Shown in pieces: positions 1-43,230 of a stretch of DNA of 44,055 nt. The stretch is from Lachnospiraceae bacterium (lineage in GTDB: Bacteria > Bacillota > Clostridia > Lachnospirales > Lachnospiraceae): NCBI GenBank assembly GCA_014804615.1, contig JAAUZL010000012.1, positions 181,805-225,859 of the forward strand. The letters are read 5' to 3'. How positions within the stretch are numbered: position 1 is the stretch's first letter; each line of letters opens with the position of its first letter. Both the position numbers and the translations under genes were made by a program. The notes beneath the pieces are model-generated. The model did no database searches. It was not told where the DNA came from and saw only the letters and a program-made list of their open reading frames with translations.

Positions 1-208
1 ACGCATCTGACTACCTACACGTCGTTTCCGGCTGACCCGGACTATTATGTCTGTACAGTGACTTGTCGTCAGTTTCCTAACTTGACATTCGCTCCACGGA
101 AAACCTGCCACGTGGGCAGCAACCTCACGCTTCACAGCTATCATGCCACAGCACAAACTAGTATATATGAAGTTTTTGGTAAATGCAAGAAAAAAAGTGC
201 AAAAGAAA

Positions 209-37421: not shown

Positions 37422-38303
37422 TTACCGTTTCTCCCACCAAGTCCACTTCTCTGCGGGTTTATATCCAATCGCTTTATAAAAGTCATGCCATCCACCTGTC
37501 ATATGCGTTGCCCCCAATGCTTTCATCCTTCGATACAATTCTGACAAAGCCGCAGCGGCAAGTCCTCTGCGCCGATATTCCGGAATGGTGCACAGCGGTT
37601 CCATATAAGCCAGTTTATTTTGGGGAGTCCACCACATTCCTGCATAACAGGCATACTCTTCTTTTTCATCGGCAATAATAACTGCCAGTTTCGTTGTTAC
37701 GTGTGGTGCCAGAGCATATAAATAATTACTCTGCTCGTATTGGTGATCCCATACCCCCTCATTTTGCTCATGATCGAAACCTTTCCAACAACACTTAGCT
37801 ACCTTTTCTATATCATATTCGTCCGGATCCACAAAATGAAATCCCTCCGGCAAAGGATAATCCAATGCGTCTTCAAACTCGAATTGCATATCCCAACTTT
37901 CTGATTTTTGATAATACCCTGCCTGTTTTGCGGCGTTCATCAACGCCTCCTGCCCTCCAAAAAGAATCAGTTGTATTTTCCCTCCTTTTATTGGCATATG
38001 GGCATCGGCATATGCAATCATTTCTGATGCCAATTCCTCATATCCTGGCTTCAAACTGAAATAAATATCTGTCACAGGCGATTCGTTAAAGCAAAATGCC
38101 ACAATCTCACCGTTATCCTCCCAAATGCGATTTTTATAAGAATATGTGATATCCATCCAATATGCAAATGAAGCATAGGCATGTTCAAAAAACGGGGCAG
38201 GCACGCCGTTTCTCCAGTCCCGTTCATAAATATCCAGCATAAACTGATAGATTTTTCCACAGTCCGCCAATACGCTAAATTGTCTTGTTGTTATATTTTT
38301 CAT
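37422..38303 (-). CDS. GNAT-family N-acetyltransferase
   Basis: This 293-residue cytosolic protein has its acetyl-CoA-binding domain in the C-terminal half: LAYMEPLCTIPEYRRRGLAAAALSELYRRM contains the Q/RxxGxG/A-type loop as RRRGLAA near residue 245. The N-terminal half (1-150) looks like a second, degenerate GNAT-like domain, as in two-domain GNATs. Substrate unknown; an antibiotic or small metabolite is possible given the neighbouring exporter. GGAG lies before the ATG and a good promoter sits at 38338-38366. Confidence 0.88.
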   Translation of the reverse strand: MKNITTRQFSVLADCGKIYQFMLDIYERDWRNGVPAPFFEHAYASFAYWMDITYSYKNRIWEDNGEIVAFCFNESPVTDIYFSLKPGYEELASEMIAYADAHMPIKGGKIQLILFGGQEALMNAAKQAGYYQKSESWDMQFEFEDALDYPLPEGFHFVDPDEYDIEKVAKCCWKGFDHEQNEGVWDHQYEQSNYLYALAPHVTTKLAVIIADEKEEYACYAGMWWTPQNKLAYMEPLCTIPEYRRRGLAAAALSELYRRMKALGATHMTGGWHDFYKAIGYKPAEKWTWWEKR

Positions 38304-38337
38304 TTTCTTATTCTCCTATCGTATGAATTTTAATATT

Positions 38338-38366
38338 ATTGTAAAAAGGATAGAATTATCACACAA
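38338..38366 (-). promoter_or_regulatory. promoter of the two-domain GNAT gene
   Basis: On the minus strand TTGTGT (38361-38366) and TACAAT (38338-38343) are spaced by 17 bp, 35 bp before the ATG. Confidence 0.65.
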
Positions 38367-38398
38367 GTAGCGAGAACAGTTATAACTAATATTGCGCC

Positions 38399-38431
38399 AA
38401 AAAAGACGCCTGCCGTTTAGGCAAGCGTCTT
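38399..38431 (-). terminator. intrinsic terminator of the CD3324-family gene
   Basis: AAGACGC pairs with GCGTCTT and TGCC with GGCA across a single mismatch and small loop. On the minus strand the stem runs into TTTTTT. It starts right after the stop of the gene at 38436. Confidence 0.88.
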
Positions 38432-38435
38432 AAAA

Positions 38436-38693
38436 TCAACCATATACTATTTTTTTAATTGTGCTATATGCCAGACCATATCGCTCCGTTAATACATCGA
38501 TAGAATAGCCTTCCTGAAACAGTTTTTGTATTTCTTTATTTCGCTCTTGATAAAATGTACGAGCGCCACTGCTGGTTCCCCATTCTTTCTTAACCGAAAC
38601 TTTGGGAATGTAAAGCACTCCTCCATCAATATAAGTCTGAAGCTCTTTCAATAAATGCTCCGGCAATATTTCTGCTGCATTCATATATTTCAT
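38436..38693 (-). CDS. CD3324-family small DNA-binding-like protein
   Basis: This 85-residue protein starts MKYMNAAEILPEHLLKELQT followed by YIDGGVLYIP, the conserved opening of the CD3324 family, and ends in a helix-turn-helix (LFQEGYSIDVLTERYGLAYSTIKKIV). It resembles Mor/Caudovirales-type small activators but has no proven role. The ATG at 38693 is preferred because AAGGAG lies 8 bases upstream; a GTG 9 bases earlier is the alternative. The gene is preceded by a tiny ORF plus hairpin (38761-38851) that may regulate it. Confidence 0.85.
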   Translation of the reverse strand: MKYMNAAEILPEHLLKELQTYIDGGVLYIPKVSVKKEWGTSSGARTFYQERNKEIQKLFQEGYSIDVLTERYGLAYSTIKKIVYG

Positions 38694-38760
38694 TTCTGCC
38701 ACTCCTTATTTATCTACTCATAAATAAAGTGCAGAAACAGCAGAACATATAGTGTTATTC

Positions 38761-38800
38761 GCCCATACAGAATTCTATATGCCTGCTATTCTGCATGGGC
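38761..38800 (-). promoter_or_regulatory. hairpin overlapping the end of a mini-ORF
   Basis: GCCCATACAGAAT (38761-38773) and ATTCTGCATGGGC (38788-38800) form a 13-bp stem with one G-U pair on the minus-strand RNA. The upstream arm is the last codons of the mini-ORF at 38786-38851. No U-run follows, so it could act on translation, or be a decayed attenuator. Confidence 0.5.
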
Positions 38801-38925: not shown

Positions 38926-39387
38926 CTATTGAACCTTTTCCTTTTTCTTGATACGAAATCCATTTTTCAAATACAACTTCACTGCATTCTGATTCCATTC
39001 AGCCACATGTAAAATGATTTCCTCATAGCCTTGTTCCTTGATATGATTCATTCCCCATAATAACAGCTTTTGTCCCATCCCCTGTCCTTGAAATGATTTC
39101 GCAACAATTAAATCGTCTATCTCATTTCCATAACAGGAGACCGCACCTGCTATTACTCCATTTTGCATATACAGGAAAATATCATTTACTTTATCTTTGA
39201 TCTGAGAATAGTCAGAATAAAAGTTTACTGGCTCGACCTCTAATGCTTTTCTCATTTCATAGAAACACTCATTATATATCTTCCTATACGCATTCCAGTA
39301 TTGCTCTTGAAAAGGAATGCAGCTTATATCATTCTGATACTCTAATGTTTGATCGAATAACATCTCATATGCAATTATTTCTTTCAT
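38926..39387 (-). CDS. GNAT-family N-acetyltransferase
   Basis: This 153-residue single-domain GNAT has the acetyl-CoA pyrophosphate loop FQGQGMGQKLLLWGMNHI and the following strand YEEIILHVAEWNQNAVKLYLKNGF, the usual C-terminal GNAT end. The ATG at 39387 follows GGAAAGGA and lies inside the MFS gene, overlapping it by 23 bp, so it is co-translated with that exporter. Pairing of an acetylating enzyme with an efflux pump suggests drug or toxin resistance, but the substrate is unknown. Confidence 0.88.
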   Translation of the reverse strand: MKEIIAYEMLFDQTLEYQNDISCIPFQEQYWNAYRKIYNECFYEMRKALEVEPVNFYSDYSQIKDKVNDIFLYMQNGVIAGAVSCYGNEIDDLIVAKSFQGQGMGQKLLLWGMNHIKEQGYEEIILHVAEWNQNAVKLYLKNGFRIKKKEKVQ

Positions 39388-40705
39388 CAATATTCCTTTC
39401 CAAAATCCTACTACTCATAAGATCATTGTAAATCGGCTTTTTCAAGCGAGAAAGACTTATGGCTATTCCAAAAACTCCCACGAAGAAGAATATAACCGCT
39501 ATTCCTGATCCATTTCCCGAACCAAAGAACCGGGAAAGCATCTTTTGCATGGGCGAATCCGCCGTCATAAACGGCTCCATGACATAATCTGCCAATACAC
39601 CACCTAAAAACAAACCTAAGGGGATCGTACAATTTTGCAAAGTATCCTTTGCCGAAAAAACACGACCCTGCATTTCAAGTGGTATATGTTCCCGCATGAT
39701 GGTCATTAGATTGGCGTTCATTATGACCGCTAGTACATAAGATGCAAAAGCAGCGATACACCAAACCAACGGCGACAGAGTCAGGCTTTGCACCACATTA
39801 CCTGCAAAGACAAAAGCGGTGGTTACAAAAACTACTTTCGATTTGTCTCTCACAGTTTTCATCAAGGTTACGATAATGCTTCCTGCGAGCAGCCCTAAGG
39901 CCACAGAGCTTTGCACCATACCCAGCACCTGTTGATCATTACCGGTTCTGCCCAAAACAAAGGGAGAAAGCATCCCATCATTTCCCAGTTTGGCAAGAAA
40001 ATTAACAATAGCAATGAACAGGGTAATGTGTAAAAGGGCCCCGTGATCCCGTAAATAACGGATTCCATCCCGACAACTCTCTAAAAACGGCTCCTTGTTT
40101 TTCTCCTCTGTATGCTCTATCTCCGGAATCTTGATGAAGAACAAGAGAACAAAAAATGCGACGGAAAAGCTTACCAAGTCACACGCCAAAACCAACTTCA
40201 TTCCGCCAAATGCCAGTAAACAACTTCCTAATGCCGGTGCCAGAATAGAAACAACAGAACCGGAAAAGCCCTGCAGCCCGCCGACCCTGGTATAATGCTT
40301 TTTCGGCACTAACAAACTGGTCGCCACAAAGGAAGCCGGTGTTTGAAAGGCATTCATAAAACTTAGCAAAACATTAATGACATATAAATGCCATATCCTA
40401 AGCGCGGAAAAAGAATACAACACAAGGATAGTTACCGTCCCACAAGCGGCTGCCAGATCAGTCAGCAGCATAATGCGCTTCTTATCCCAACGATCCGCCA
40501 AAGTTCCTGCTATAAAACGGAAAAAAATCGTCGGCAAATAGGAACAGATGGTTAAAATCGTTATACTGGAAGCAGTCCCCTTCTGTCCATAAATCCAGAT
40601 AATTAATGCATAGCTGGTCATTTCCGTACCCAATTCGGATACAGTCTGCGAACTCCATAAGAGTAAAAAACTCCGCAGTTCTTTGATAAAATTTAAATTT
40701 TTCAT
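39365..40705 (-). CDS. MFS-family drug exporter
   Basis: This 446-residue protein with about twelve membrane helices is of the MFS/macrolide-efflux-like type. The loop 2-3 motif reads GTLADRWDKKRIML, followed by a second half with REHIPLEMQGRVFSAKDTLQNC, a segment typical of MefA-like and related exporters. It would use the proton gradient to expel drugs. It is preceded by a leader peptide and attenuator (40789-40883) of a kind used by genes induced by ribosome-targeting antibiotics, which supports a drug-resistance role. The downstream GNAT gene overlaps its 3' end. Substrate not determinable. Confidence 0.9.
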   Translation of the reverse strand: MKNLNFIKELRSFLLLWSSQTVSELGTEMTSYALIIWIYGQKGTASSITILTICSYLPTIFFRFIAGTLADRWDKKRIMLLTDLAAACGTVTILVLYSFSALRIWHLYVINVLLSFMNAFQTPASFVATSLLVPKKHYTRVGGLQGFSGSVVSILAPALGSCLLAFGGMKLVLACDLVSFSVAFFVLLFFIKIPEIEHTEEKNKEPFLESCRDGIRYLRDHGALLHITLFIAIVNFLAKLGNDGMLSPFVLGRTGNDQQVLGMVQSSVALGLLAGSIIVTLMKTVRDKSKVVFVTTAFVFAGNVVQSLTLSPLVWCIAAFASYVLAVIMNANLMTIMREHIPLEMQGRVFSAKDTLQNCTIPLGLFLGGVLADYVMEPFMTADSPMQKMLSRFFGSGNGSGIAVIFFFVGVFGIAISLSRLKKPIYNDLMSSRILERNIDERNNCI

Positions 40706-40788
40706 GGCTTTGCTCCTTATATAAATAGAATTTTTGTGTATACAAGTAATGCAAAGCCTAATGCGGACGATAAAATTTATCTAAGATG

Positions 40789-40838
40789 AAAAATGCGCTC
40801 CGTGCCGGTATCGTCCTATATTAGACCTTGCACGGAGC
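40789..40838 (-). terminator. attenuator hairpin upstream of the MFS exporter
   Basis: GCTCCGTGC (40797-40805) and GCACGGAGC (40830-40838) are perfect complements over 9 bp, with a 24-base loop that can pair further (GGT with ACC, CTA with TAG). On the minus strand the hairpin is followed by GCATTTTTC, i.e. a U-run at 40789-40793. Its promoter-proximal arm lies in the Ala-Pro-Cys codons at the end of the leader ORF, so a stalled ribosome there would prevent terminator formation. Confidence 0.75.
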
Positions 40839-40883
40839 AAAAACATCTGCGGAAAAAGGTATACCACACTTTGATTGTGTCAT
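40821..40883 (-). CDS. 20-codon leader peptide of the MFS exporter
   Basis: ATG at 40883 lies 9 bases after GGAGG and encodes a peptide that begins MTQSKCGIPFSADVF and ends APCKV before TAA. The final codons form the 5' arm of the terminator hairpin. This arrangement, a short translated leader overlapping an intrinsic terminator, matches ribosome-mediated attenuation known for several resistance genes. No good -35/-10 pair for the leader transcript could be fixed: TATATT at 40922-40927 lacks a well-spaced -35. Confidence 0.68.
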   Translation of the reverse strand: MTQSKCGIPFSADVFAPCKV

Positions 40884-41111: not shown

Positions 41112-41759
41112 TTACTTAATATCTTTCTTTACATCTTTTATGTATGTAATAAATTCAAACATATTAGTATACGGATTACATTCATGTGAAAAAACATTTT
41201 TATGTACTTCAGCTTGTGCTTTATGTAACAGTATCGCCTCCTTAAAAGCTTTATCTTGCTTATCTAACAAAATATCAAATATATCCGTTGTTTCTTTATA
41301 CTCAGGTTCCTCTTCCTTTACTAAGTCTTTTATTATTTTTTTAATTTGCTCTGCACTTTTTCCATAAGGAGCTTTCCTATAATGTAGTATAAACCAAATC
41401 TCAAATGATGGATTTGAAAATATACATTCTAATCCTTTGTGCTTATAACCTCTAACCAAATCAAATGCTTCATTAATATTCGGGTTAGATCCCGGATCTG
41501 AATCAAATACACAATAGCATTTATCACCTAATTCGACATCTACTTCATTATCATCTATATATTTTTTTGCATACTTTACAATTCCTACTGCATCCGTATG
41601 CTTTGGATCTACTGGAATAACCTCTATTCCCCTTTTCTTATTCTCATAGTGCTGTAAATAAATTTCTTCCGTATCTCCCTCAGTAAAAATATATATTTTA
41701 CATGGCTTTTCTTTTGTGCTCTTTCCTTTTTGCTCTTTTCCTCTTGCTCTAGTACGCAT
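41112..41759 (-). CDS. RloB/AbiLii-like TOPRIM-type protein
   Basis: This 215-residue protein has a basic N-terminus and then IYIFTEGDTEEIYLQHY (TOPRIM glutamate), VFDSDPGSNPN (acidic DxD strand) and NPSFEIWFILHY, the RloB family signature. The fold is OLD-like TOPRIM, a metal-dependent nuclease domain. It lies 10 bp after the AAA ATPase gene, forming the ATPase plus TOPRIM pair known from AbiL/RloAB abortive-infection systems. AAGGAG is 14 bases upstream of the ATG. AT-rich. Confidence 0.88.
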   Translation of the reverse strand: MRTRARGKEQKGKSTKEKPCKIYIFTEGDTEEIYLQHYENKKRGIEVIPVDPKHTDAVGIVKYAKKYIDDNEVDVELGDKCYCVFDSDPGSNPNINEAFDLVRGYKHKGLECIFSNPSFEIWFILHYRKAPYGKSAEQIKKIIKDLVKEEEPEYKETTDIFDILLDKQDKAFKEAILLHKAQAEVHKNVFSHECNPYTNMFEFITYIKDVKKDIK

Positions 41760-41769
41760 AATATCTTAT

Positions 41770-43008
41770 CTACTCCTTAATATTGGGAACAGCTCCATAT
41801 CGTCCTTTTAAGTATCCTAATTCAATATTATCTTTTTCTCGAATTAAGTAATCATCCAAAAGCTTAACATATGTTGCTCCATCTTCATCCTTATCCACTA
41901 AGTATATCTGTTCAGGATTTAACAAATTAAGAATTTTAGTATCATGTGTACTAAAAAACAACTGCGCCCTTCCATAATTTACTTCATTACTATTAAATTG
42001 TTCTAGAAAATACTCCGTTAATTTTGTATGATAATTTCTACCTAGTTCATCTTCTATAAACAAACCACCCTCCTTATTTACAAAAAGCATTTCCGCAAGA
42101 TTATCTATAATATCACGTGTACCAGAGGAATCATCATTCATCTCAATATTGAATGTTTCTCCACTCTTGCTAGCATGCGTAACCCAAATCACTGGCGTGT
42201 CTTCTGGTATTATATCCTCTGAAACCTCACCTTCTCCTAATATATTTGTCAAAAATTGAATCATTGCGTCTCTTTGCTGTTTTTCAATCTTCTTATTCTT
42301 TACATATATATCCTTTATGTTAAAATCCGCCTTTGAAAGTGCTTCCAATAATACATTTTTCCAAGAAGCATCTTTCACTACATCTGCTATTACTTGGCTA
42401 ATATTCATATCGCTATATTGCCTGAACATTTTTTCAAACCATTTGTATGGATCTTTTGCTTTTTCATATCCCCACTCCGCTGCAACCGGCAAATACAGTC
42501 TATTAGAATTTGTTTTTTTGGATATTTCATTTTGAGCCTTAACATCATTCCCCCTAAAATTGTATTCCGATACGATATTTACATCTCTTTCGAAAATTGT
42601 AGTTGCTTTTTTGGAATAGTATGCCAAAAGATACTCTTCCAAAACACGTTCTGTGTCTATTGTAAATCCATAAACATATTTTATATTATTCTCATAGAAA
42701 ATGAATTCGAATGAAGACCCCTCTTCTCTGCTATTCTTATCAAGCATAAACATTTCAATATTAATTTTAGATTTTTCTTTTCGTTCTATTGTAGCATTAA
42801 TAAACCTCAATGCAAAAAACAATGAACTGATTATATTACTTTTTCCACTTGCATTTGGGCCTACTAAACCAATACATCTATAAACGGAACAGCCTATCTC
42901 ATCATTGATAAGCTTGTCAGAATCTACTTCTTTTCCCATTGCAGTAAAATTAATAACAATTTCATCTTTGATTGATTTATAATTTCTTACTGAATATTGT
43001 ATTAACAT
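41770..43008 (-). CDS. RloA/AbiLi-like AAA_15 ATPase
   Basis: This 412-residue SMC/ABC-type ATPase has Walker A GLVGPNASGKSNIIS (about 46-60), the region NDDSSGTRDIIDNLAEML standing in for the signature, Walker B GGLFIEDELGR and the H-loop FFSTHDTKIL. It belongs to the AAA_15/OLD-type group and is paired with the downstream RloB-like gene, so it is the sensor or motor half of an AbiL-type system that presumably causes growth arrest on phage infection. GGAAGGTG precedes the ATG at 43008. AT-rich compared with the neighbouring tuf gene. Confidence 0.9.
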   Translation of the reverse strand: MLIQYSVRNYKSIKDEIVINFTAMGKEVDSDKLINDEIGCSVYRCIGLVGPNASGKSNIISSLFFALRFINATIERKEKSKINIEMFMLDKNSREEGSSFEFIFYENNIKYVYGFTIDTERVLEEYLLAYYSKKATTIFERDVNIVSEYNFRGNDVKAQNEISKKTNSNRLYLPVAAEWGYEKAKDPYKWFEKMFRQYSDMNISQVIADVVKDASWKNVLLEALSKADFNIKDIYVKNKKIEKQQRDAMIQFLTNILGEGEVSEDIIPEDTPVIWVTHASKSGETFNIEMNDDSSGTRDIIDNLAEMLFVNKEGGLFIEDELGRNYHTKLTEYFLEQFNSNEVNYGRAQLFFSTHDTKILNLLNPEQIYLVDKDEDGATYVKLLDDYLIREKDNIELGYLKGRYGAVPNIKE

Positions 43009-43230
43009 ATATTCACCTTCCAAATTATTAATATAGTTTTATGTTCTTTTTTCTCCAAAAATGGTATGATAGAGCTTATTTTTGAGTTTATCACTTCCAC
43101 CACTATTTGTCAAAAGAAATATCATAAATAATACTATTATAGACAATTTTATAAATTTTATTCCTATAACAGTTTATTTTTCGGCACCGTTTTGGCATCA
43201 TTCACTCTCATCTTCGCCATTTCTGCACGC

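Follow-up and report, generated by a model that had tools for sequence, protein, structure and literature searches.

The locus raises the question of whether, and how, a 20-codon open reading frame that ends inside an RNA stem controls the putative exporter gene behind it. The window analysed was a 44,055-nucleotide stretch of a Lachnospiraceae genome (GCA_014804615.1, contig JAAUZL010000012.1), and its features are collected in Table 1. A sequence-only reading had proposed that the leader ORF and the stem, followed by a U-run as a terminator, form an attenuator through which a ribosome-targeting drug induces a MefA-like exporter. The ORF with its GGAGG, which lies ahead of an MFS gene and shares bases with one side of a 9-bp stem, was confirmed in coordinates and pairing, as was the overlap of the MFS and GNAT ORFs. 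The label MefA-like held at the superfamily level but not as Mef(A), for which the protein scored 106.4 bits against a curated NCBIfam cut-off of 675. Just upstream of the leader, at 41112-43023 on the minus strand, lie an AAA_21 ATPase gene and then a RloB-like gene, a type of pair seen in anti-phage loci, and positions 63-143 (minus strand) hold an S10-Clostridia ribosomal protein leader (RF03136, 95.5 bits).

Table 1. Features of the two elements and of the genes behind them in the window
Feature	Position	Strand	Remarks
Leader ORF MTQSKCGIPFSADVFAPCKV (20 codons and TAA)	40883..40821	minus	GGAGGTG (GGAGGUG in RNA) 7 nt upstream of start
s1, GCUCCGUGC	40830..40838	minus	Codons Ala16-Pro17-Cys18; pairs with s3 (helix P1), can pair with the Shine-Dalgarno sequence (SD; P4)
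s2, GCAAGGUCUAAUAUAGGACGAUA	40809..40831	minus	Pairs with s4 (helix P2, ON state)
s3, GCACGGAGC	40797..40805	minus	3' arm of helix P1, the terminator stem of the sequence-only reading
U5 run (TTTTT)	40789..40793	minus	3' of s3 after GCA; U5 not conserved in the family
s4, UAUCGUCCGCAUUAGGCUUUGC	40751..40772	minus	Pairs with s2, or through its 3' end GGCUUUGC with s5
s5, GGAGCAAAGCC	40706..40716	minus	MFS gene SD and the stretch pairing with s4 (helix P3, OFF state)
MFS exporter, TIGR00900-like, distant relative of Mef proteins	40705..39365	minus	PF07690 5.3e-29; TIGR00900 207 bits, below cut-off
GNAT acetyltransferase	39390..38926	minus	Overlaps MFS gene; PF00583 2.5e-15
Second leader ORF MRRKMQALYQNGAKNTFAHAE, ending at a stop codon	38851-38786	minus	SD AGGAGG; ahead of CD3324 gene
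Second element	38693..38800	minus	s1 38800-38789, s2 38794-38778, s3 38772-38761, s4 38749-38731, s5 38699-38693
CD3324-family protein, target of the second element	38436..38702	minus	NF040785 101 bits (cut-off 65); likely ATG start 38693

The leader ATG at 40883 (minus strand) directly follows GGAGGTGTTTCTAA. Near the end of the ORF, GCTCCGTGC, read as GCT CCG TGC in codons 16-18, is perfectly complementary to GCACGGAGC and forms the 9-bp stem s1:s3. The loop of this stem is 24 nt long, and three bases (GCA) separate the stem from the U-run. The stem was not among the entries of a consensus terminator scan, which takes loops of 3-8, and s1:s3 with the U-run is a long-loop, poor candidate for a terminator. 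The 220-nt leader folded more stably than 200/200 dinucleotide shuffles (z = -4.3). The stem and TTTTT of the sequence-only reading are present in this copy, but that reading missed two further helices, s2:s4 and s4:s5, on which the working of the element depends.

In the fold of the leader, s2 and s4 form a helix of about 20 pairs. The 3' end of s4, GGCUUUGC, is also complementary to GCAAAGCC (40713-40706), which links the MFS Shine-Dalgarno sequence to the start codon, and GGAGCAAAG in s5 is kept across the family. Thus s4 has two alternative partners, s2 or s5. Since s1:s3 crosses s2:s4, these two helices are mutually exclusive, and s1 can also pair with the MFS Shine-Dalgarno sequence (GCUCC with GGAGC). 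Such an arrangement of s1-s5 is that of a translational attenuator. As in erm- and cat-type systems, there are mutually exclusive helices, one of which closes the ribosome-binding site of the regulated gene, and a leader ORF with its own SD lies ahead of that gene, its translation being inferred from codon conservation.

Two close relatives share PFSADVFAP of the leader peptide. In the Lachnospiraceae MAG HAN044 (L038), whose MFS protein is 81% identical, the leader reads MIQAQIYLPFSADVFAPRRV and the GNAT gene is absent after the MFS gene. Genome G347, from another genus, carries the leader MRYLLPFSADVFAPCKV before a degenerate MFS gene (L035, contig C153); there the leader and RNA arms are intact, the MFS gene is reduced to fragments, and an unrelated gene lies beyond. 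Across the three copies the pairing arms are nearly unchanged and the s3-s4 interval, the site of the U-run, has changed. This close group consists of three loci only, one of them with a degenerate MFS gene, and it is rare, since a degenerate FSADVFAP pattern matched only this copy and G347 in 397 family genomes.

The wider family surfaced only when MFS genes 42% identical to that of the window were examined. Most species sampled from the genus have genes at about this identity, preceded by leaders of 10-14 codons that end in (A/T)PC(K/R)(V/A/G)-stop and by the five segments s1-s5 as well. Covariance models matched 53/397 genomes of the family (Lachnospiraceae-like; 48/334 genera), 31/295 of the order, 18/245 of the class and 2/199 of the phylum, with the source genome counted within each of the four tallies, and less than one in ten of the other sampled Clostridia. 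The phylum-level match outside the sampled class is L155. In all, the architecture was found again in more than 100 loci, and the named species that carry it are Monoglobus pectinilyticus and Subdoligranulum variabile. Weaker matches keep the RNA and shift the frame of s1, giving LHAK or LHTK endings (L117, L119, L124, L128, L129, L149) or endings such as SKQRL (L127, L131, L146). In five copies (L006, L010, L018, L019, L023) s3 holds GGAGG and a small ORF, for example MTVSSNFAT followed by a stop, lies between s3 and s4 as a possible second leader. Nucleotide searches of plasmids and phages with the MFS-leader region gave no match. The same was true of plasmids searched with the element of a family member and of viral contigs scanned for the conserved 19-mer, and the covariance model found no element at a CatA-like gene on a Pusillibacter plasmid.

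The sequence-only reading had named conservation and covariation of the ORF and hairpin in related loci as a test of itself, and both proved strong. In an alignment of 27 copies, compensatory changes in P1, P2 and P3 far exceeded shuffled and slid controls: for P1, 98.1% of cells were paired and double changes were seen in 13 (against a mean of 4.7 in shuffles, 0/500), for P2 93.4% and 22 (6.4, 0/500), and for P3 92.1% and 8 (2.0, 0/500), shuffle counts that are not readable as probabilities, as the copies are related. P1 gave the same result in two further alignments, one of 80 copies and one of 42, and P3 in the former (92-95% of P3 cells paired overall). P1 lay outside the structure given to the models, and in newly found copies it had 98% of cells paired with more double changes. 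In most copies the s4 column beside CUUUGC changes between C, A and G, and the matching positions in s2 and s5 each follow as G, U and C, respectively. Such triple covariation is what one expects of a base with two alternating pairing partners. Four copies have Ala-Leu instead of Ala-Pro, and a change in s3 restores the pairing. The element is thus conserved as a three-helix switch, with s1:s3 at the end of the leader, s2:s4 as the alternative and s4:s5 closing the MFS ribosome-binding site.

A different reading of the same helices is transcription attenuation, in which s1:s3 and the U-run would terminate transcription intrinsically and ribosome stalling would let s2:s4 form as the antiterminator. 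This copy does have a 9-bp stem followed by GCA-UUUUU, P1 formed with probability 1.0 in RNA cut at s3, and the exclusivity of s2:s4 and s1:s3 would suit such a mechanism. However, the loop of 24 nt, the offset U-run and the absence from the terminator scan speak against it, and a conserved GC-rich stem running directly into a U-run was not found. A U-run, defined as at least 5 T in the 8 nt after s3, occurred in 9/122 copies, a count that includes one locus twice, so that 113/122 relatives are without it. In contrast, the sequestered MFS ribosome-binding site is common to the family, and a pure terminator needs no conserved complementarity to that site. We therefore regard terminator-based attenuation as unlikely, and as the conserved mechanism it was not upheld; in this copy a terminator could add to sequestration of the ribosome-binding site. 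What stood of the earlier interpretation is the translated leader whose ribosome decides exporter expression, to which the conservation and covariation point.

The peptide itself was examined in leaders anchored at Ala-Pro-Cys. Leu stands five codons upstream in 72/79 leaders, with all six Leu codons used, followed by Cys in 48/79 and then Ile in 69/79. When codon columns were shuffled between leaders, Leu reached 59.3 +/- 2.2 against 72 observed and Cys 23.1 +/- 2.5 against 48, and 0/2000 shuffles, in which relatedness was uncontrolled, reached the observed value in either case. The Ala-Pro-Cys part could not be used in this test because RNA pairing fixes its bases. Selection thus acts on the leader peptide.

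The place where a ribosome would have to halt was computed by partition-function folding with the ribosome footprint masked, equilibrium folding and a footprint of P site +13 to +15 being assumptions of the model. Helix probabilities were used instead of mean SD accessibility, which was too blunt a measure. When the RNA was cut after s3, s1:s3 formed with a mean probability of 0.83. The full-length free RNA of this copy had both s1:s3 and s4:s5 at 1.0 and was shut, and the minimum-energy structure of a longer stretch, with s2:s4 formed and s1 on the Shine-Dalgarno sequence, was likewise shut; the two shut forms differ between stretches, so their balance depends on the stretch folded. Over 96 copies, the mean s4:s5 probability fell from 0.63 to 0.31-0.38 only with the leading edge at +4 to +6, into the Ala codon, and was about 0.9 or more once the edge reached +8. 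In this copy it fell from 1.0 to 0.14 at +5, with the P site at Asp13 (FSA-D/V). The 3-nt opening window equals one codon, and the predicted stall therefore falls on the codon three before Ala, which is Asp13 here and Ile in the main family. The HAN044 copy rests with s2:s4 formed and s1 on the SD, and opens once s1 is covered. The masked folding thus predicts that the gene stays shut when the leader is read to its end and opens only when the ribosome halts at one place.

That covering one codon reproduced the switching bears on whether the RNA might instead be a riboswitch that senses a ligand directly, with the ORF incidental. The RNA is strongly structured and conserved, as a riboswitch would be, but a peptide kept through synonymous codons and an SD in nearly every copy are at odds with an incidental ORF. 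There was also no conserved unpaired pocket, and no Rfam 15 family matched the element at gathering score. A riboswitch is accordingly a most improbable explanation.

The genes behind the element are mostly of the MFS type. Of the first round of 80 copies, 78 stand before an MFS gene, which in a few cases is a fragment, a proportion biased toward MFS in that about one-third of the 80 were found via MFS genes; the other two precede an esterase (L100) and a type A CAT (L103; PF00302 1.2e-58, NCBIfam 210.8 bits, below the cut-off of 270). The 42 order- and class-level copies were followed by 26 MFS genes, 2 CAT genes (L145, L147), 6 genes for a 430-aa protein, 2 for SpoU-type methylases, 1 for an APH-type kinase and 5 of the CD3324 family. 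The three type A CAT-like genes come from three genomes and score 210-212 bits against the 270-bit NCBIfam cut-off. The SpoU-family (TsnR/RlmB-like) methylase genes (L119, L124) follow the version with the LHAK frame. The 430-aa protein, confined here to one family (f17; L118, L121, L123, L125, L126, L130), has no Pfam or NCBIfam match, and its leaders, for example MRLTIVLTPCKVILDSVCME with its stop, extend through s3. CAT and SpoU-type methylase genes behind the same element are consistent with an inducer that targets the ribosome.

The downstream genes also bear on an attenuator of amino-acid supply or general translation stress, in which uncharged tRNA (for example for Cys) or a metabolite-dependent arrest, rather than a drug, would halt the ribosome. 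Cys occupies two consensus positions (48/79 and 75/79), and the 430-aa protein and CD3324 genes are found downstream as well. But the Cys codons vary (Arg in HAN044 and others), the second Cys lies inside s1 where RNA pairing fixes the bases, and the leaders have no runs of one codon. Together with CAT, SpoU methylase and APH-type genes, which are drug-resistance types, this makes such an attenuator quite unlikely.

The window contains a second copy of the element, ahead of a CD3324-family gene. Its arms are s1 GCCCAUGCAGAA, s3 UUCUGUAUGGGC, s2 GCAGAAUAGCAGGCAUA, s4 UAUGUUCUGCUGUUUCUGC and s5 GCAGAAA at the start codon, and they form the same three helices, perfectly or nearly so, in divergent sequence. 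The R2 model gave this copy a low score (18.1 bits, E 0.11) because its letters differ. Folding reproduced the switch: it opened only when the codon in the P site was about Lys14, the one following Ala13. In other genomes CD3324 genes are also preceded by the element. In the window a GNAT gene of about 293 aa follows the CD3324-family gene (37422-38702, minus strand), and the element in L128 is likewise followed by a CD3324 gene and a GNAT-like gene of about 297 aa.

Taken with the rivals above, the element is probably a ribosome-gated translational attenuator of the erm/cat style that a ribosome-targeting drug would open. In uninduced cells, s1 at the end of the leader ORF would pair with s3 once s3 is transcribed. 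With s2 trapped in the s1:s3 loop, s4 would then pair with s5 and shut the MFS ribosome-binding site, and if s2:s4 formed anyway, s1 itself could seal the Shine-Dalgarno sequence. Under induction, an antibiotic would halt the ribosome with Asp13 at or near the P site, Val14 in the A site and a nascent chain ending in FSAD, so that s1 would be covered and s2 left free to take s4, releasing s5 for translation of the exporter. A ribosome that reached the stop codon would mask s2 as well, and s4:s5 would stay shut, so that opening would take a halt at about one codon.

The inducer would most likely be a drug that targets the large ribosomal subunit. At the predicted stall, the penultimate and P-site residues are Ala12-Asp13 here, Ala13-Lys14 in the second copy and mostly Cys-Ile in the main family. 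L117 has Arg-Val/Arg at this place, which resembles the macrolide +X+ motif. The main-family context Leu-Cys-Ile/Ala and the CAT leaders fit no arrest rule known to us. Chloramphenicol and linezolid arrest best with Ala as the penultimate residue and less with Ser or Thr (PMC8987054), and the arrest motif of the CmlA leader is KNAD (PMC10192921). The predicted FSA-D/V stall of this copy resembles these contexts, a fit made, like that of L117, after the fact, and KNA-D and FSA-D are alike when compared by leader motifs only. For this copy a phenicol- or oxazolidinone-type inducer may tentatively be suggested, at low confidence. The phenicol guess is weakened because the CAT leaders (MKRGLDAAPC in two of three) have Gly (Gly-Leu) or, in the third, Cys as penultimate residue and not Ala, Ser or Thr.

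Known attenuators share parts of this design. Those of ermC and other erm genes (PMC5418344) also have a short translated leader, alternative helices and a resistance-gene ribosome-binding site that is sealed unless a ribosome stalls; here, in contrast, the leader peptides and RNA arms are unrelated, the main effect of helix 1 is to trap s2 in the loop, and the element is Clostridia-wide and mostly before MFS genes. The chloramphenicol-inducible attenuators of cat, cmlA and fexA (PMC5418344) similarly control CAT or exporter genes at translation, and the present element also occurs before CAT genes, but its CAT-linked leaders are without Ala-Asp at the predicted stall codon. The mef(E)/mel attenuator likewise places an MFS efflux gene behind a leader peptide, using a Rho-independent terminator and the leader MTASMRLR (PMC4335068), whereas the leader here, MTQSKCGIPFSADVFAPCKV, is not of the MRLR type, and the R2 model gave no match on the tested mef(A) and mef(F) loci. 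The only result of permissive Rfam searches was the uup RNA motif (RF03060), also a cis-regulatory hairpin, which matched weakly at the P1 hairpin on the opposite strand (24.1 bits, below the gathering score of 36.8). The leader peptide matched no Pfam or NCBIfam family. In the literature searched, which left out most subscription papers, the peptide motifs were in no relevant text and the element was not described. It is apparently an undescribed, separate family that works like the erm and cat attenuators.

Across copies s1 is read in all three frames (...APCKV, ...LHAK and ...SKQRL). It is possible, although we would put it at somewhat below even, that the element is a modular drug-sensor scaffold, in which one RNA switch is kept while the leader frame and peptide and the downstream gene are exchanged and each copy answers a different ribosome inhibitor. 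If true, the gene string of this window carries two copies of such a scaffold. To our knowledge, inducible attenuation of this kind has been described chiefly for the erm, cat, mef and tet genes of well-studied bacteria. The present family points to probable ribosome-gated switches across gut and other Clostridia, before mostly uncharacterised exporters and modifying enzymes, and to a hidden layer of inducible resistance that is invisible to gene-presence surveys. The family offers testable stall codons and could show which natural compounds these exporters answer.
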